Part shown: positions 1-16,301 of the stretch, one piece after another
How positions within the stretch are numbered: the first letter of the stretch is position 1
How the letters are laid out: the number at the start of each line of letters is the position of its first letter
NCBI GenBank assembly: GCA_026702755.1
Contig: JAPPBX010000012.1
Location: forward strand, 1-42,772
Direction: 5' to 3'
Origin: Candidatus Poribacteria bacterium
GTDB lineage: Bacteria; Poribacteria; WGA-4E; WGA-3G
Length of the DNA: 42,772 bases
Position numbers and translations under genes: made by a program
Notes under the pieces: generated by a model
Told to the model about the DNA's origin: nothing
Databases searched by the model: none
Seen by the model: only the letters and a program-made list of their open reading frames with translations

Positions 1-488
<488 letters not shown>

Positions 489-492
489 CATT

Positions 493-522
493 AACATAAG
501 GACTCTCACACAGTGCTTATGT
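493..522 (+). other. Stem-loop just after 16S rRNA
   Basis: AACATAAG (493-500) and CTTATGTT (515-522) form a perfect 8-bp inverted repeat around a 14-nt loop, a dozen bases after the 16S end. It may be a processing or pausing hairpin of the rRNA transcript. There is no T-run after it, so it does not look like an intrinsic terminator. The rest of 481-738 shows only a weak promoter candidate. Confidence 0.45.
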
Positions 523-610
523 TCACGCTCTGAATCTTACAAGACACGCACACAAACTATTTAACTTTCAAGGACCTTTCTCTTTAGGATACAGCAAGCC
601 TTTTGCTATA

Positions 611-639
611 TTGACCAATCCGATTTTCCTTTATATTCT
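611..639 (+). promoter_or_regulatory. Possible sigma70 promoter for the secreted-protein gene
   Basis: TTGACC (611-616) and TATTCT (634-639) are separated by 17 bp, about 100 bp upstream of the GTG start at 739. The -35 matches 5 of 6 consensus bases and the -10 matches 4 of 6. It would let the gene be expressed separately from the rRNA. Confidence 0.4.
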
Positions 640-738
640 AAATTGTTCGCAAGAAGAGAATTTTAAGTCTTAATTCCTCTGTTTCCCAATTTTTCTTGTT
701 AGTGCTTAATCTACTGACACAACCGAAGGAGAAATAAA

Positions 739-1491
739 GTGAAAACGAAGGTATTTGTCGTAACATTGCTTTTCTTAACGGCATTCGGCATCGTAAACGC
801 TGAGATTCTTTTTGTCGATGACTTTGAACAGGATAGAATTGGCGAGGAGCCATCAAGATGGGAACACCTCAACTTTAACTCTGGCAACTCAAGAATCCTT
901 ATTGAAAAGGACCCTGCTGACCCCGGCAACAAAGCGGCTAAAACTACTGGTATTGGGCTTTACATCCCGATAGTTGATGGAAGAGAAAAGTGGCGGGATT
1001 ATATTTGGGACTTTGACTGGATGTGGGAAAATGACAGTTTTGTCGGCACAATTTACAGAGTGGAAGGTGGACTTAAGGGTGCTGAATCTCATTTTCACGG
1101 CACTCGTCGCACTGGTGGAACGAATATTCAGATTTATACACGCAAAGCTGGTGCTTGGGCACTCCTTGGAACTGGGCAGTTTCCCAACGAGAACAACGTG
1201 TGGTATACCCATCGACTGGTTATGAAAGGCGGACAACATCAGATGTATCTAAGAAAACGGGAGAAAGAGTTACCGCCCGCGGATTGGCACCTTAAGGAAA
1301 AGCCTATTGTGGAAGTTGACAATGATACGTTTAAAACGGGACCTGTCGGAATGATGGGAATTACCGGCGGTGTCAGTTTTTTTGATAATATGGTTGTTGT
1401 CGAAAGTATCGCCGATATTGATAAGGTTCGTCCCGTCTCGCCTCGTCTTAAGTTAGCAACAACGTGGGGAGTCATCAAAACCAGATTTTAA
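739..1491 (+). CDS. Secreted LamG/DUF1080-like beta-sandwich protein
   Basis: This 250-residue protein has a clear Sec signal peptide (lysines, then a hydrophobic stretch to VNA at about residue 21). The mature part begins with FVDDFEQD, followed by tryptophan- and glycine-rich beta-strand sequence including DYIWDFDW and GMMGITGGVSFFDNM. That pattern resembles concanavalin A-like (LamG/DUF1080) domains, which often bind or process glycans; no catalytic residues can be assigned. The start is GTG, set by AAGGAG at 726-731. The C-terminus is a short basic tail after a proline-containing linker (KLATTWGVIKTRF). It sits alone between the 16S gene and a tRNA, an unusual place for a protein gene. 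The coding call is firm; the function is only a fold-level guess. Confidence 0.8.
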   Translation: MKTKVFVVTLLFLTAFGIVNAEILFVDDFEQDRIGEEPSRWEHLNFNSGNSRILIEKDPADPGNKAAKTTGIGLYIPIVDGREKWRDYIWDFDWMWENDSFVGTIYRVEGGLKGAESHFHGTRRTGGTNIQIYTRKAGAWALLGTGQFPNENNVWYTHRLVMKGGQHQMYLRKREKELPPADWHLKEKPIVEVDNDTFKTGPVGMMGITGGVSFFDNMVVVESIADIDKVRPVSPRLKLATTWGVIKTRF

Positions 1492-1500
1492 CAAATTAAT

Positions 1501-1529
1501 TTGACAAACCTGTTTTTAGCGTGTATACT
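1501..1529 (+). promoter_or_regulatory. Near-consensus sigma70 promoter for tRNA-Ile
   Basis: TTGACA (1501-1506), a 17-bp spacer, then TATACT (1524-1529). The -35 is perfect and the -10 differs at one base. Transcription would begin near 1536, about 50 nt before the tRNA. It shows that the tRNA is not dependent on read-through from the 16S gene. Confidence 0.8.
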
Positions 1530-1584
1530 TAATAGTGCTTATTGGCAAACAAAAACGAAACTCCTTTTTTAAGGCGTTCCTCGT

Positions 1585-1661
1585 GGGCTTATAGCTCAGA
1601 CGGTTAGAGCGCGCGCCTGATAAGCGCGAGGTCCCTGGTTCGACTCCAGGTAAGCCCACCA
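1585..1661 (+). tRNA. tRNA-Ile (anticodon GAU)
   Basis: A full cloverleaf can be drawn. The acceptor stem GGGCTTA/TAAGCCC pairs perfectly (1585-1591 with 1651-1657). The anticodon stem CGCGC/GCGCG encloses CTGATAA, giving anticodon GAU at 1619-1621. The T stem is CCTGG/CCAGG around TTCGACT. The discriminator is A and the CCA end is encoded (1659-1661). tRNA-Ile(GAU) normally lies in the 16S-23S spacer. Here it is also the first RNA gene after the 16S, but a protein gene precedes it and no 23S follows. Confidence 0.97.
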
Positions 1662-1852
1662 TTTCCTACCATTCCCCACCGCTCTTTTACCAGTCCTTTG
1701 TAATCCTATTTTACCTATCCACGCGTTTATACCGCGCACCTACCAACGTATCTATTTCCATTTAATGGTCATCTATTAGGCGTGGCTTGCACGTCATTAC
1801 AGAGAGAATGGAACACCCAAATCCATGGATTTATGCACAAGGAGCAGACAGA

Positions 1853-3880
1853 ATGAATGAGAATGTTAACACGTGGGCGTTACCTGATGGAGCAATTGCT
1901 CGATTGGGACGCGGATATGTGGAAGATCTCGCGCTTTCGCCAGATAGGAAGACGCTGGTCGTTGCCACCTGTATCGGAGTATGGTTGTATGAACTCTCAA
2001 CGATGACTCCGATCGATTTGTGGGAAACGGAGCGTGGGATGAGTTGCCGCCTCAATTTTTCTCCTAATGGCAAATGGCTTGCCATTGGCAACCGTGACCA
2101 GACCCTTAAGGTATGGGACGTTGATCAAGGGAAAAGCATTACCCGGATTGAAACTTCAAAAATTAGATTTAGATCGAGACTGAGCCGGGTTGTCTTTTCC
2201 AATGACAGTCAGTACATCGCCACTTCTGAGCCGCTTATCGGTATCGTTCATCTTTGGCATGCCGAAACAGGAGAGCAGATTGCCGAGTTCCAAGCCGACC
2301 CGAACATAACAGTCCGATGGCAAGGGGGTGTTCCGCGTCCTCTCTGCTTTTCTGATGATGGGCAGCTCCTTGCCTGTCCAACGCCCGCGGATAGTGAAGG
2401 CATCGCCGATTTCATCTCGGTGTGGCATGTAGAAACAGGTGAACAGATTGCTTCCCTGAGAGGACATACGGCACGGGTATATGCGCTTAACTTTTCGCCG
2501 TGTGGACAATACCTTGCCGCAGGTGATTTATCTGGTGGCACCTTGCGAGAGTGGGATGTTACCGCAGGTACCTGGATGGGGGAGTTGTCATATCCTGAAT
2601 ATCGGCGGATAACGCCGACTTACTCAGGGTCAGGAAGCCTTCTTGCTGCTGGTGTGCATCAATCCACGCTCACCGTCTGGGATGTGAAAACCGATGAGAA
2701 ACTCAATACTTTTGATTCTCGTGGGGGCGTTGATGTTCTACGCTTTTTAACTGAGAAATCACCGTCTGGTGGGAGATTGAAACCAGCTCTGATTTTCGCA
2801 ACTGAACGAGAGATCAAAGTGTGGGATACGGAGAATCCTCGCGCTGCCGCTTCGATTTCCAGAGAAGTTCACTATCCACACTTCGTGGCGTTTTTACCGG
2901 ATGGGCAGACCTTGGTGAGCGTTGACTCTGCTGGGACGACCTGTTGGAATATTGCCGAGAAACGACGACAGCAATTGATTGCTCGTCCGAATACAGAAAT
3001 TCGTTCCGTCTATATCTCACCAACGGGTAGTATCCGCGCTATCGGTAGCATTAAAAACAGACTCTTTGTATGGGATGTTGATGCCGACGAAACAATCGCG
3101 ACCTTTGCTGGACATCAAGAATTCGTTCGGACCTTTGCCTTCGCCCCCGCGGGTGAGTCTTTTGCGAGTGGGGATGCAGACGGGGGATTATATGTATGGG
3201 ATACACAAGGAAAACAAACGGCTTTGGTGGGACATACAGATTTAATTCGATCCTTAGCCTTTGATCCAGATGGAAAACGACTGGTAAGTGGTTCAGCCGA
3301 CGGAACCGCTCGGATCTGGGATGTTGATTCTGGCGAAGAGATTGGTACACTTCCATTAACACCTTTTGATTTAACTTTAGAATCGGAAAACTATGTTGGG
3401 GATGCAGAGCAAAAACAGCGTAAACTTCGGTTGCAGCGTAACAGACACATCAGAGGAGACACAGCCTATCATCCTATCACACTGGAAGCGGTTGTTTTTT
3501 CACCATGTGGAAGTTTTATTGTTGGTGGAATGCACAACGAGATTCGGGTGTGGGATGCCACAAATTATGAACTCCTCATGGCGATACTTCCACCTCACGA
3601 ATGTCGGCAGCCGTTTGCGCTAACATTTTCATCTTGTGGTCGATATTTCGCCTCTGGTTCTTGGTGGTATGCTGGAGAGAAAGCCCCTATCGAGTTGTGG
3701 AAAGTTGACACAGGGGAAAATATCCCCACTCTGAAAAAATTCGCCACACTTCCTGGTCATCCGACAGATGTTCAATGTCTCGCCTTTTCACCAGACGGCA
3801 CGCTTTTGGCAAGTGCGAGTTTTGATGGCACCATTCTCTTATGGGATATGACCCCTTACCGGACATCGAACGCATGTTAA
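1853..3880 (+). CDS. WD40-repeat protein, probably two seven-bladed propellers
   Basis: About 14 WD-type strand motifs run the length of the 675-residue protein, for example LKVWDVDQG, VHLWHAETG, LREWDVTAG, ARIWDVDSG and ILLWDMTPY, many preceded by FSPDG- or FSPCG-like turns. Fourteen repeats fit two seven-bladed beta-propellers. There is no signal peptide or membrane segment, so it is probably a cytoplasmic protein-interaction scaffold. No kinase, protease or effector domain is fused to it. The open frame reaches back to a TTG at 1787 and an ATG at 1808, but AAGGAG (1839-1844) eight bases before the ATG at 1853 decides the start. It lies 154 bp upstream of the A1 permease gene on the same strand, so a functional link to the permeases is possible but unproven. 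Confidence 0.9.
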   Translation: MNENVNTWALPDGAIARLGRGYVEDLALSPDRKTLVVATCIGVWLYELSTMTPIDLWETERGMSCRLNFSPNGKWLAIGNRDQTLKVWDVDQGKSITRIETSKIRFRSRLSRVVFSNDSQYIATSEPLIGIVHLWHAETGEQIAEFQADPNITVRWQGGVPRPLCFSDDGQLLACPTPADSEGIADFISVWHVETGEQIASLRGHTARVYALNFSPCGQYLAAGDLSGGTLREWDVTAGTWMGELSYPEYRRITPTYSGSGSLLAAGVHQSTLTVWDVKTDEKLNTFDSRGGVDVLRFLTEKSPSGGRLKPALIFATEREIKVWDTENPRAAASISREVHYPHFVAFLPDGQTLVSVDSAGTTCWNIAEKRRQQLIARPNTEIRSVYISPTGSIRAIGSIKNRLFVWDVDADETIATFAGHQEFVRTFAFAPAGESFASGDADGGLYVWDTQGKQTALVGHTDLIRSLAFDPDGKRLVSGSADGTARIWDVDSGEEIGTLPLTPFDLTLESENYVGDAEQKQRKLRLQRNRHIRGDTAYHPITLEAVVFSPCGSFIVGGMHNEIRVWDATNYELLMAILPPHECRQPFALTFSSCGRYFASGSWWYAGEKAPIELWKVDTGENIPTLKKFATLPGHPTDVQCLAFSPDGTLLASASFDGTILLWDMTPYRTSNAC

Positions 3881-10016: not shown

Positions 10017-10076
10017 AGGTGATGGGGAGTTATCTGTTTCCTAATTCCACTCATGTCCAGTTTCAACTCATCACCT
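10017..10076. terminator. Inverted repeat between convergent genes
   Basis: AGGTGAT (10017-10023) plus GAGTT (10027-10031) pair with AACTCATCACCT (10065-10076), leaving a small bulge and a loop of about 33 nt. It spans the gap between the B2 stop and the DUF1501 stop, where a bidirectional terminator would be expected. There is no T-run, so it may be only an intergenic repeat. Confidence 0.35.
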
Positions 10077-11556
10077 GCCAAATTGGTTCCGCACCCTCAA
10101 CACCTACAAGTTTCTGATCTAACCCGCTGTGGAAATAAGTGAGTCGATTCGGGTCAATTCCGAGTTGATGGAGGATTGTCGCGTGCAGATGCCTGACATG
10201 AAATGGATCTGTGACCGCCGCGCTACCGAGTTCGTCGGTCTCACCAACGCTGATACCGCCCTTGATCCCGCCGCCAGCCATCCACATTGTGAAGCCGTAA
10301 GAGTTATGGTCACGACCTGTCCCCTTGGCGTACTCTGCTGTCGGTTGTCGACCGAATTCACCGCCCCATACAACGAGTGTTTCGTCGAGTAGTCCGCGCT
10401 GTTTGAGGTCTTTCAGCAGCCCGGCAATCGGTTTATCAGTCGCTTTGGCGTGCTTGTTGTGGTTTTTCTCGATGTCGTTGTGTGCATCCCAATTATCGTC
10501 GCCATGGGCACCACCGGAGTAAAGCTGAATGAACCTAACACCACGCTCAACCAACCGTCTCGCTAAAAGGCATTTCGTGCCAAATTCCTCCGTCTCCTTT
10601 TCGTTGACCCCGTACAGTGCTTTAATATGTTCCGGTTCGCTTTTCAAATCGACTGCTTCCGGTGCGGTAGACTGCATCTTGTAGGCTAATTCGTAACTCG
10701 AAATTCGAGCGGCGAGATCAGTGTTGTCGGTGCGTTTGGAGAGATGGGTTGTGTTAAATTGGCGCAAATAGTCGAGGAGCCTGCGCTGTTCGCTTTCACT
10801 CACGTCACTCGGACGCTCCAGATTCAGTATCGGGGCACCTTCTGAACGGAAAACTGTGCCTTGATAAACAGCGGGCATATATCCGCTACTCCAGTTCTTA
10901 GCACCGCTGATGGGACCCCCCGTTCGGTCAAGCATTACAACGTATCCCGGAAGATTTTCGTTTTCACTGCCAAGCCCGTAATTCACCCAAGATCCGAGCG
11001 ACGGGTGACCGCTCAACACGCGACCTGCGTTCATCATCAGCATCGCTGAACCGTGCAGTGGTGAGTCTGCAGTCATTGACTTGATAAAGGCGATGTCATC
11101 AACACAGGTTGCAAGATGCGGAAAGAGTCCTGAGACCCACTGTCCCGATTCGCCATGTTGTTTGAAATCCCACTTTGGGCTGACGATGCGTCCCTCCGAT
11201 CTCTCACCGCCGCGTCCTTTCGTTTTGACTTGAACGGTCTTGTCGTTGAGTTTGGACAGCGTCGGTTTGTAGTCGAAGGTGTCAACATGGCTTGGACCGC
11301 CATACATGAACAGGAAAATCACGCGTTTTGCCTTCGGCGTGAAGTGTGACGGTTTTGGCGTGAGTGGATTGAGATAGGGCGTTACACCGTCTGCCGCGAC
11401 GGCTTGTGAATCGAGAAAACCGTCAGCGGATAGAAGTCCGGTCAGTGCAAGCGATGCGAAACCACCGGCAATATTACCGATAAATTCCCGACGGGTTTGA
11501 CCACAGAAATCCCCTTTTGAATTTGTTTTTCTCTTGGTCTTAGGTAGATTGTCCAT
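10063..11556 (-). CDS. DUF1501 (sulfatase-like) protein with Tat signal
   Basis: This 497-residue protein carries a twin-arginine leader (QTRREFIGNIAGGFASLALTGLL, about 23-45; the twin arginines are the key feature), so it is probably exported folded. The mature part shows DUF1501 features: RVIFLFMYGGPSHVDTFDYKP, SPLHGSAMLMMNAGR, GLGSENENLPGYVVMLD, VVWGGEFGRQPT and the closing HATILHQLGIDP. DUF1501 belongs to the alkaline phosphatase/sulfatase fold, but its enzymatic role is not established. It lies 54 bp downstream of the DUF1553 gene on the same strand. That pairing is a recurrent one in Planctomycetes and relatives and is thought to serve polysaccharide or sulfated-glycan use. Start ATG at 11556 has GGAG eight bases upstream. 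Confidence 0.92.
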   Translation of the reverse strand: MDNLPKTKRKTNSKGDFCGQTRREFIGNIAGGFASLALTGLLSADGFLDSQAVAADGVTPYLNPLTPKPSHFTPKAKRVIFLFMYGGPSHVDTFDYKPTLSKLNDKTVQVKTKGRGGERSEGRIVSPKWDFKQHGESGQWVSGLFPHLATCVDDIAFIKSMTADSPLHGSAMLMMNAGRVLSGHPSLGSWVNYGLGSENENLPGYVVMLDRTGGPISGAKNWSSGYMPAVYQGTVFRSEGAPILNLERPSDVSESEQRRLLDYLRQFNTTHLSKRTDNTDLAARISSYELAYKMQSTAPEAVDLKSEPEHIKALYGVNEKETEEFGTKCLLARRLVERGVRFIQLYSGGAHGDDNWDAHNDIEKNHNKHAKATDKPIAGLLKDLKQRGLLDETLVVWGGEFGRQPTAEYAKGTGRDHNSYGFTMWMAGGGIKGGISVGETDELGSAAVTDPFHVRHLHATILHQLGIDPNRLTYFHSGLDQKLVGVEGAEPIWQVMS

Positions 11557-11610: not shown

Positions 11611-14508
11611 TCAATCCAAAAAGATAAATTCATTTAGATTCAACGCCAATAACGCAAATCGGTCCAGTGCAACCTCTGGACTCACGCCTTCATGTTGTTG
11701 AAGTTCTTGCATGAGGGTTAATGCCTGTTGCACTTCGGATGACTCAGGTTCACGGCACAGCACAAGCCGAAGTCCAAATCGCACGCGGTCTTCGACTGCC
11801 ACACCACCTTCCCACCGCATTCTATTGGCGAAAGCGAGTGCTTGGTCGTTGATAAACTTCCCGTTGAGCATTGTCAGCGATTGGGTTGGCACCGTTGTCG
11901 AAAAACGGACTGGACAGGTCGAATCGGTGTTTGCCTGATCGAATTGGTTCAGGATTGGGACGAGCAACGAGCGTTTAACCTTTACGTAAACGCTTCGGCG
12001 GTTTGCCTCATCCGGTGGTGATTGCCCCCAAACACTCCTCGGTCTTGAGGATGTCGCCAACACTTCTTTCGGTAGTTCAGGGAAAATACTCGGTCCTCCC
12101 ATTTTAAGGTTCAGTTTTCCAGTGATCCAGAGTACTGTATCCCGAATCTCTTCTGCAGTCAAGCGACGCATGTCGAATCGCCAAAAGAGGTCATTGTTTG
12201 CGTCTTGTTGAATACATCTCGCATTGCTCTGTGCTGACATCCGATACGCGTTTGAGGTCATTATCAGTTTGTGCATCGCTTTTAACCGCCAACCGGTCGC
12301 GATGAATTCAGATGCCAGCCAGTCGAGAAGTTCGGGATGTGTCGGCGATGTGCCGAGTTGTCCAAAATCGTTCGTTGATTGGACAATGCCACGTCCGAAG
12401 TGGTGTTGCCAGATACGATTGACCATCACGCGTGCTGTTAGTGGGTTCTCAGCATTCGTCACCCACTCCGCGAGGATACGCCGTTTCCCAGATGACTTTG
12501 CGTCCTCTGGAACAGGCGGTATGTCTACAATAGGCGGATTCAACACTTCGGGAAATGCCGGTTTAACCTCGCGTCCGACAAGGTGCGGGTTACCACGTCG
12601 CAAGATGTGCGTCGGTGTCTGCTTACTCTCTGAAACCGACAGCGCCTGATGATCGTAAGGCACGCGCTGTCGCCGCCGCTGATCTCGCTGTTTTTTCAAC
12701 TCCCTCTGTTGATCTACTAACGCCTTCAACGATTCGTTCGTTTCGATAAGTTCCGCATGTGTTTTTAGCAACTCATCAAAATTGACTGTAGCATTTGTTG
12801 AGAGTGGCTGTTTCTCAAAACTCGACCCTGACCACGAAACAGTCAGTTGCGGTTTATCGATATCTTTGTTGAAGTATTCAAGACGAATCGACACCTCACC
12901 ATTCGTGAGCGCAACTTCGACATCTCGTTCACCGATCAATTCGGCGACTCTATAACCATTGAGAATCAATCTACAGGTGCCTTGCAGATCAATATGGAAT
13001 GTATAAGTCGCCTCTTCTGGTACCTGTAACGTTCCTTCAAAAACCAAGCAGATGTCTTTCTTTCTACTGGCGGGTGCGAGTGAGAATAGATTGCTAAACA
13101 ATCTCCCTTCGGCAGTAGGTTCACGGAGATCAAAATTATCAGGAAACTGCTCAAAGGTGTCTCGATAGAAGCGATATGTCAAATCACGCATCGGGGACAC
13201 TGGCGCATCAGGTACTATCTCCTCTGAAATATTTTTAGCGAGTTCGATTTTGATGATTTCTTGTATCTCGAAGAGTTTGTCCTGTGCTTCTTGTTCTGCG
13301 AGTCGCTTTTCAGCGAGTTGTTTATCTCGCACTGCTTGCTGCTCCGGCGTGCCAATATCGGCAAGAGGACCGCGGTTGTTGGGCGTAATATCATGGAAAA
13401 ACGCGAGTAGACTATAGTAATCCCGCGTGGAAATCGGGTCGATTTTATGGTCGTGGCATCGGGCACAACCGACTGTCATACCGAGCATCACTTGTCCTGT
13501 TGTTGAGACAATATCGTCAAGATAATCATACCGCGCGAGTTTCCGATCAGCAGGACTATCGTCCCAAACACCAAGTCGGTGATACCCAGTCGCAATGATG
13601 GTCTCTGTGGTTACGGTATCAAGTTCATCACCTGCCAGTTGTTCCTTGATGAATTGATCGTACGGTTTGTCTTTGTTGAAGGCGTTGACAACGTAATCAC
13701 GGTATCGCCATATATAGGGCTTGTCTGAATCGTTTTCATAGCCATTGGTTTCGGCATAACGGACAAGGTCGAGCCAGTGCCGTCCCCACTTTTCACCGTA
13801 GCGTGGCGACTTCAGGAGTTTATCAATGAGTTTTTCATAAGCGTCTGGGGATGTGTTGTTCAGGAACGCTTCCACTGCTTCTGGCGAGGGCGGTAATCCT
13901 GTGAGGTCGTAGTATACCCGACGGATCAGTGTCAGTTTGCTGGCGGGTGCGGCGGGGGTTAAATCGTGTGCTTCGAGCTTTGCGAGAATAAACGCGTCGA
14001 TCGGATTGTTGACCCAATCGGATGCATTCACTGACGGCACTTGGGGTCGTTTCAGCGGACGATATGCCCAATAATCCGATGCAGTTTTAGATTTGGGTTG
14101 GACGTTGGTATTTTGAATCGGATAAGGGAGTCCTATGTTGATCCATTTCGCCAGAATCTCAAGAGAGGTGTCATCTAACCTCCCATCAGGGGGCATCTGT
14201 GCTGTTTCTTGACCGTAACCGACCATCTCAAGTAGGAAACTATCGGCAGGGCTTTCAAGCGACACCGCAGCACCATAATCTCCGCCTTCCAGAATCTTTT
14301 CCCGACTCGTCAGTTGGAGTCCGCCCTCTACTTCAGCTCCACCACCGTGGCATTGGAAACAGTTCTGCTGGAGAATAGGCTTTACTTGAGAATTAAAAAA
14401 TTCTACCTTCTCTGCATCACTCGGATGATCTGCATAACCGGTATTGAAGGAAGCCAGTAGGCACAGAAAAACAGTGGCAAGGAAATAGGAACGGTGAGGA
14501 TGTCGCAT
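11611..14508 (-). CDS. PSCyt1/DUF1549/DUF1553 cytochrome-c-like protein
   Basis: This 965-residue exported protein starts with a signal peptide ending near NTGYA. Next is a planctomycete cytochrome-c domain with heme site CFQCH (about residues 50-54). A DUF1549 domain follows ([37 protein letters not shown]) with a second CxxCH motif, CARCH. A central insert looks like a PA14-type beta domain ([20 protein letters not shown]). The C-terminal DUF1553 domain has [19 protein letters not shown] and [11 protein letters not shown]. Heme attachment is inferred from the motifs. GGAGG upstream of the ATG at 14508 favours that start over the ATG four codons earlier (14520). It is the first gene of a two-gene unit with DUF1501. 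Confidence 0.92.
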
Positions 14509-14669
14509 GGTTTCCTCCATTCAAAGACAGTGCTTTGAAACGCTTTGTGCGATCGAAAATCCTTTGAACCTTAATATTTTGCCATCAATTCTTAGGAAAT
14601 TAATTGCCTATTTGACGAAAATTCGATTTAAGGGTTTAGTGCGGTGTTAGATTGCTTGACCCAACTACC

Positions 14670-16193
14670 CTACGACGATGCTTCTCTTGTTTCCGCTGGC
14701 ACGACGGAAACGCGTACAATAAAAGTGTTGGTACTTCCCTTCTCGCAAAACCAATTACCCGTTGCCCCTAACTTGAACTGTTGTCCGTGTGGGAATCGGT
14801 AAATCATTTGTCCGGTGACCCTGGGCGGAATGTCCCATACTGAAGCCAGTGCGTCGTTCGGAAATCCCTCTGTCGGCAGTTCAACGTCAGCGTCATACAA
14901 ATCGAACGAACCTGTCGCCTCACCTTCGCCTACCTCTATATCAATGATAAGGGTTCCACCCTGTTCAAATGACGTAGCATCAATCTCAATGGGTGTATAG
15001 TTCTGATAGCCGGCTCCGGGCGCGCGGAAGGTGTTTGAAACTTCCATCAACTGCTGACGCAAACTGGGATCGTCTGATTCCAGTGAGGGCTTCTCTTCCA
15101 ACGCGTATGCTAATAGTGTGAGATATCCTTGCGCTCGATTGTTGTGAGGGAATTTGCTATCTGGTTGGTGCATAATGACTGTGGCTTCAGGATTCAGGAT
15201 CTGAATGTCCACTGGATAGGCGTAATAATCTTTGAGGGACGTAGCGAAAAGACTGACGCGTTCCCCTTTTGAACCCTCTATAAGTTCTGGCAAATCACGC
15301 GGCATTACCCAAGTATTTACAAAATTCTCGTTGAGCGTTTTTATGACTTCTGAATTCGAGAGCGGACCCGCTCTCAAGTTTTTACCGTTCGCTCAGCAGG
15401 ATTCATCGTCTAAAGGACCCCAAGCAAGGACTGCATGAATCGGACGCTGTGTCGTCTCGGATTCCGCGACTGCTTCTTCAAGGGGTAGCCAGTTAATTTC
15501 AGCGAATTTGTAAAACTTCAATTCCAATCTTTTACGTGCTGCTTCGACCGTGATGGAATTTTCCCACTCAATGTCATCCCGCGCTTTTGTCGAAGTGGCA
15601 AGAAGTTCCATGCGCGGCACGAAGACCATATCAGCATGCCCAAAGTCATTGATGTCTACATTGCTATTGCGCGGCGGAAGCGCGAGCGAAAAGTCGCAAA
15701 TAGTGCCTGTCTTCAAGTTAATGCGTAATCGTCCTGCAAACTGTGATGGAATAAAACGGGCTTCGTCTATCAAATGCTCGTGAGTGCCAGGTTTCCATCC
15801 GGGTTTGTGGCGGGTTGCCAAAGTAAATTCCGCATGAATTCGGAACGTGATGTCTGCATAATCCGGCGAAAGTGCGCGTAAACAGGCGAAAGTTCCTTTC
15901 TGCCCGTGCCGTAACTTTCCTGTAGCCCCCGGGTGAAATTGGGAAAGAAACGGGATAACGCTATCCATATCCAGTTCCCATACGTCCCCTACCGTCACAT
16001 TTGACGATGGGAGAAAGGCGTTGAAAGCCTCTCCGTTATATTCTCTGGTAGGTTCGTTTGGTGACAGATCAAAGAGCTCAGCGTTTTCTGGTAATTTTTT
16101 GTGTAAATCGTAAGTCGCATCGGCAATTGGGTCCCAATGTGCATGTATTTCTAAGGGAGCTGAATTCTTCAAAACATTATTCAGATCTATCAT
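14670..16193 (-). CDS. Selenoprotein N homologue, UGA read as selenocysteine
   Basis: Two open frames (16193-15396 and 15392-14670) are in the same frame, separated by a single TGA at 15395-15393. Across it the sequence reads WGPLDDESC-U-ANGKNLR, matching the vertebrate SELENON active site WGALDDQSC-U-GSGRTLR. Similarity continues on both sides: NVDI...VPRMELLAT and EAARKRLELKFYKF before the site, LNENFVNTWV after it. The product is 507 residues with Cys266-Sec267. GGAGG seven bases before the ATG at 16193 sets the start. Human SELENON is an ER redox/calcium-homeostasis protein; here there is no signal peptide or EF-hand, so a cytoplasmic thiol-redox role is likely. Residues from about 387 form an extra beta-rich C-terminal part. 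The residue after Sec is Ala, not Gly. A SECIS-like hairpin follows the UGA. It lies about 110 bp downstream of the aminotransferase gene. selA, selB and selC are not in the window. Confidence 0.92.
15355..15395 (-). promoter_or_regulatory. Bacterial SECIS-like hairpin after the in-frame UGA
   Basis: Reading the minus strand, UGA (15395-15393) is followed by 15 nt and then a stem. GAGAGCG (15375-15369) pairs perfectly with CGCUCUC (15364-15358), and two further pairs (a U-G wobble and a U-A) extend the base. The apical loop is GGUC (15368-15365) and begins 24 nt after the UGA. Bacterial SECIS elements place a small loop, with G in its first two positions, about 16-37 nt after the UGA. The GGUC loop also occurs in the E. 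coli fdhF SECIS. Recognition by this organism's SelB is inferred. Confidence 0.8.
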
Positions 16194-16301
16194 TCGTTGT
16201 CCTCCATTGTATAACTCATCTATACACGTTCTTGGATGCACTTTTTGCCACTGTTGGGACAATGGGCAACCCATATTCCCGTATAAATTGTCAAACTGCA
16301 T

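Follow-up and report, generated by a model that had tools for sequence, protein, structure and literature searches.

The bSECIS model describes bacterial SECIS elements as hairpins in which an upper stem of 4-16 bp carries an apical loop of 3-9 nt, with a G at loop position 1 or 2, 16-37 nt between the UGA and the loop, and a folding energy no higher than -7.5 kcal/mol (as quoted in PMC13188914). In Escherichia coli K-12 fdhF the hairpin lies within the coding sequence soon after the UGA, shows GGUC in its predicted apical loop, and has a bulged U below the loop and a lower helix. Among selenoproteins with a vicinal Cys-Sec pair, human selenoprotein N (SELENON/SEPN1) carries the motif SCUG, with Sec462 in a thioredoxin domain and Arg466 four residues on (PMC12839072, PMC8967691); its structure was unsolved as of PMC7474598. 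Here we describe a gene of Candidatus Poribacteria, found in a window of 42,772 nt (the whole stretch of DNA that was analysed), in which an in-frame UGA is, judging from sequence, most likely read as selenocysteine (Sec) and not as a stop. We consider the hairpin that follows it to be very probably a genuine bacterial SECIS element, through which Sec would be read into a 507-aa redox protein. The features of the locus are as follows.

14670 to 16193, minus strand: complete coding sequence of 507 aa when the UGA is taken as Sec, ending in TAG at 14672-14670
16200 to 16205, minus strand: likely ribosome-binding site GGAGGA, read directly from the sequence, 6 nt before the ATG at 16193
15393 to 15395, minus strand: in-frame UGA, predicted to encode Sec267 when the protein has 507 aa (303 when counted from the upstream ATG)
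15358 to 15375, minus strand: SECIS hairpin core, 7 bp GAGAGCG/CGCUCUC enclosing GGUC
15365 to 15368, minus strand: GGUC apical loop, 24 nt after the UGA, presumed contact of SelB
15356 to 15377, minus strand: hairpin with two outer pairs, the outer pairs not being conserved across the family
15078 to 15503, minus strand: predicted thioredoxin-fold domain (residues 231-372) with Cys266-Sec267, from the AlphaFold2 model and structural matches
14694 to 15065, minus strand: C-terminal beta-sandwich domain (residues 377-500), from the AlphaFold2 model

Annotation-style calling gives two open reading frames, 15393-16301 and 14670-15377, which are the two halves of the 507-aa coding sequence and become one when the UGA is read as Sec; the start at 16193 was picked from the starts of homologues and from the GGAGGA motif. 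Elsewhere in the window a DUF1501 gene (10063-11556) adjoins a PSCyt1/PSCyt2/PSD1 (Planctomycete-type cytochrome) gene (11611-14520), a pairing familiar from related bacteria. Positions 1-3880 hold the 3' end of a 16S rRNA (1-480), a tRNA-Ile (1585-1661) and then a WD40-repeat gene (1787-3880). No 23S rRNA was detected after the 16S rRNA and tRNA-Ile in this part of the window, and the rRNA operon is apparently unlinked.

Read down the minus strand from 15395, the sequence is UGA GCGAACGGUAAAAAC UU GAGAGCG GGUC CGCUCUC GA, so that the UGA at 15395-15393 is followed by GCGAACGGUAAAAACUU and then by GAGAGCG GGUC CGCUCUC at 15375-15358. RNAfold, applied to 60 nt, gave -13.9 kcal/mol for a fold that encloses GGUC in exactly the 7-bp stem and two outer pairs, in agreement with the perfect stem, extra pairs, loop and spacing that the first-pass annotation had described. 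With its 4-nt loop opening on G, 7 bp plus two outer pairs and 24-nt spacing, the hairpin lies within every limit of the bSECIS model. The annotation's further statement that the distance is that expected of bacterial SECIS elements holds for the range of the model, although the loop of fdhF itself lies only 18 nt after its UGA. The likeness to fdhF extends to the position of the hairpin inside the coding sequence and to the same four loop bases, as had been claimed, whereas the window stem is simple and uninterrupted, with neither the bulged U nor the lower helix.

Taken alone, the hairpin of the window is only mildly unusual and gives weak support for Sec insertion. Its z-score was -1.39, equal stability was reached in 18 of 200 dinucleotide shuffles, and a search of Rfam at the hairpin gave no match. 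The folding statistics leave room for a hairpin formed by chance from the codons of LRAGPLS, behind a UGA that arose as a nonsense mutation, in a pseudogene or by sequencing error: the single-sequence shuffle test was not significant, and about 2.4% of synonymous recodings form at least 6 pairs at this position. Since the single-sequence fold is unremarkable, the question is decided by comparison among homologues.

The gene belongs to a large family of uncharacterised thioredoxin-like proteins, which is present in 64 of 84 genomes of the phylum, with up to 27 matches per genome, not every match being a whole gene, and all of its relatives among genome contigs come from Candidatus Poribacteria assemblies; none was found on plasmids or viral contigs. 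Across all fetched loci, 134 unique sites comprise 129 TGA, four Gly codons (GGC or GGA) and one TGT, and the window's own genome holds 14 sites, 13 with TGA and one with GGC. TGA is thus kept through many genomes and paralogues in which both halves of the protein are conserved, which excludes a nonsense mutation or sequencing error, against which the first-pass annotation had argued from the hairpin. A hairpin arising by chance fares no better against the family-wide counts given below, and we regard this explanation as a whole as hardly credible. The usual argument from Sec/Cys exchange is missing here, because the only Cys homologue is the TGT copy, whose reading frame is lost shortly downstream.

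The exchange seen in the Gly copies (L161 at 670-2379 on the minus strand, L121, L115 and L120) is from Sec to Gly and not from Sec to Cys, which is unusual. All four keep the stem, and in two of them the loop is AACU, the usual G being gone. Conservation of the stem is therefore able to outlast the UGA.

Two groups, each aligning without gaps, make up the 121 unique UGA contexts. In group A (56 sequences) the register is that of the window, with 7 bp and a GGUC loop; in group B (65 sequences) the same 5' arm pairs with partners two positions nearer, giving 6 bp and a loop of AGGU or AGUU, a second register among the window's paralogues that differs from the fdhF type. Of the 121 contexts, 118 form 6 pairs or more in one of the registers, against 5.6 expected from synonymous resampling with codons drawn from the family's own usage. 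As support for Sec insertion, then, the hairpin is weak on this single sequence and strong across the family, and the first-pass claim of independent support stands in the latter sense. Standard pairs fill 99.5% of cells in register A and 98.7% in register B, and sliding the partner reduces this to 34-78%. The part that is conserved within the family is the 6-7 bp core.

Compensatory changes among homologues, which the first-pass annotation had proposed to look for, were found at five stem pairs and include changes that are synonymous on both sides. In particular, the wobble position of the AGG/AGA codon covaries with that of codon +10 (G-C to A-U, synonymous, in five sequences), and TTG/CTC becomes TTA/CTT in one sequence, again synonymously. 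Two further sequences carry TTC with TGC (G-C to C-G), and one carries GTG with CCA (C-G to U-A). When the 3' letters were shuffled among sequences, in a column test uncorrected for relatedness, the observed pairing was reached in 1 of 5000 trials for register A and in 0 of 5000 for register B; the sequences are related, so the family counts are not independent.

It could be argued that the protein alone is constrained (LRAGPLS or LRAVALS) and that the RNA has no function, and the residues encoded by the stem are indeed well conserved. Synonymous resampling, however, preserves the protein and loses the stem, and the gap between 5.6 expected and 118 observed means that amino-acid conservation does not explain it. 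Furthermore, Arg at Sec+7 is encoded by AGA or AGG in 121/121 contexts, whereas in the rest of these genes the two codons account for 26% of those for Arg, and the synonymous-synonymous covariation points the same way. The chance that protein constraint is the whole explanation seems to us negligible. The Leu at Sec+11 is likewise CTC or CTT in every one of the 121 contexts. A separate synonymous bias beside the UGA, at codons -1, +1 and +2 (TGC at -1 in 120/121; mostly GGG or GCG at +1), is unexplained by the hairpin.

Judged by the bSECIS model, 114 of the 121 contexts fell within all five limits, the other seven failing the energy limit alone, and all 121 have a G at loop position 1 or 2. 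Loss of the stem in close homologues that keep the UGA, which would have spoken against the first-pass reading, was not seen. The weakest case is a set of three related paralogues (GAGGUC..GAACUC) with 5 of 6 pairs, which fall short of the energy limit. A conserved UGA and a hairpin kept by compensatory change are accompanied in the genome by selA, selB, selC and selD.

The tRNA-Sec of the window's genome (anticodon UCA) lies directly downstream of selB, with selA and selD also present, and a tRNA-Sec scored above the family cut-off in 74 of 84 genomes of the phylum. The UGA might instead be a general sense codon or be read through by a near-cognate tRNA, the hairpin serving some other role such as translational pausing. 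We found nothing that favors this directly; the persistence of the stem in the four Gly copies, which no longer need Sec insertion, is the one observation that leans toward it. Against it, UGA is an ordinary stop elsewhere in the window, terminating for example the reading frame at 11611-14520, and several members of the same thioredoxin-like family themselves terminate in UGA. Moreover, the dedicated tRNA and its partner genes are in place, and the position, loop G and spacing of the hairpin agree with the SECIS model. We therefore rate this alternative as very unlikely, and retain the reading of a SECIS element that would direct Sec insertion.

Further loci with an in-frame UGA came to light. 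The selD of the window's genome (L169, G000:C96:159939-160862) contains one in the context KCAG-U-ASKLAPGEL, and its product is therefore probably a selenoprotein itself; as its own SECIS a short GGGU stem-loop is conceivable by eye, but it is absent from the minimum-energy fold of 66 nt and we place no weight on it. In two genomes from another family of the same class, distant relatives (L170, G009:C35:73136-73399; L171, G008:C43:16834-17073) carry GCV-U-NNGVTGRASVFSDDRVI with the UGA again in frame, and at about the same position lies a hairpin of different sequence (GACGGGC/GUCCGUC). Both are weak matches to the profile (E 7e-4 and 0.008), which leaves the kinship suggestive; these relatives may represent another selenoprotein family.

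Searches of Pfam, NCBIfam and PDB sequences gave no family for the 507-aa protein. An AlphaFold2 model built with 23 family sequences had a mean pLDDT of 82.6, and its residues 228-372 match DsbH (Z 12.9, rmsd 2.9 over 118 residues) and ERp19 (Z 11.9). VIA-align ranked thioredoxin folds first, and the Foldseek list consisted mostly of matches to the C-terminal beta-sandwich. Identity to DsbH and ERp19 is 14-18%, and the window protein differs from both in having Cys-Sec and extra domains on both sides. In the model, Cys266-Sec267 lies between the strand 252-257 and the helix starting at 271, which would place the pair where thioredoxins have their active site.

The conserved UGA, the retained and covarying hairpin, the Sec machinery and the predicted thioredoxin fold were all read from sequence, and they suggest how the element may act. 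SelB carrying Sec-tRNA-Sec would bind the GGUC loop while the ribosome stands at the UGA, 24 nt before the loop, and Sec would be inserted beside Cys in the active-site loop of the thioredoxin fold. The outcome would be a 507-aa redox protein in place of a truncated product, with a putative thiol/selenol redox activity.

The motif around the Sec, SCUANGK in the window protein and SCUGSGK or ACUGSGK in many paralogues, recalls the SCUG of selenoprotein N, and a relationship is possible. Both proteins have a vicinal Cys-Sec inside a thioredoxin domain (here a predicted fold), and a basic residue stands at Sec+4 in these motifs as Arg466 does in SELENON. There may be further likeness to human SELENON around the Sec, which we treat as a lead only. 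Unlike animal SELENON, the family has a bacterial in-frame SECIS and extra N- and C-terminal domains. SELENON is marked by an EF-hand and an ER membrane anchor; no EF-hand family was matched in the Pfam search of the window protein, the PDB sequence search with it gave no match, and a text search for flanking residues of SelN found nothing.

A SECIS element of known kind in a bacterium that uses Sec is ordinary. Three things are of more interest: sponge-associated bacteria carry a large and unannotated family of probable selenoproteins in many copies, its SECIS has two registers and covaries within coding sequence, and a link to selenoprotein N is possible. The family has no Pfam model, and standard ORF calling cuts its genes in two at the UGA. 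In the literature searched we found no description of it and no link between Poribacteria and selenoproteins; the selenoproteome papers examined, of 2008, 2016, 2025 and 2026, do not name Poribacteria, nor do they name SelN as bacterial. We give roughly even chances to the wider proposal of a lineage-wide selenoprotein expansion in Poribacteria (13 UGA copies here, up to 27 matches elsewhere), in which every member has a SECIS of its own, in either of two interchangeable registers, and is a genuine bacterial relation of animal selenoprotein N. If the genes are expressed, a single sponge-symbiont genome would yield over a dozen related selenoproteins. Should the relation to selenoprotein N hold, the family would provide models, in bacteria, for a protein of human myopathy, and if the expansion of SelN relatives is real, these sponge symbionts would depend on selenium to an unusual degree and could shed light on how a human myopathy gene arose.
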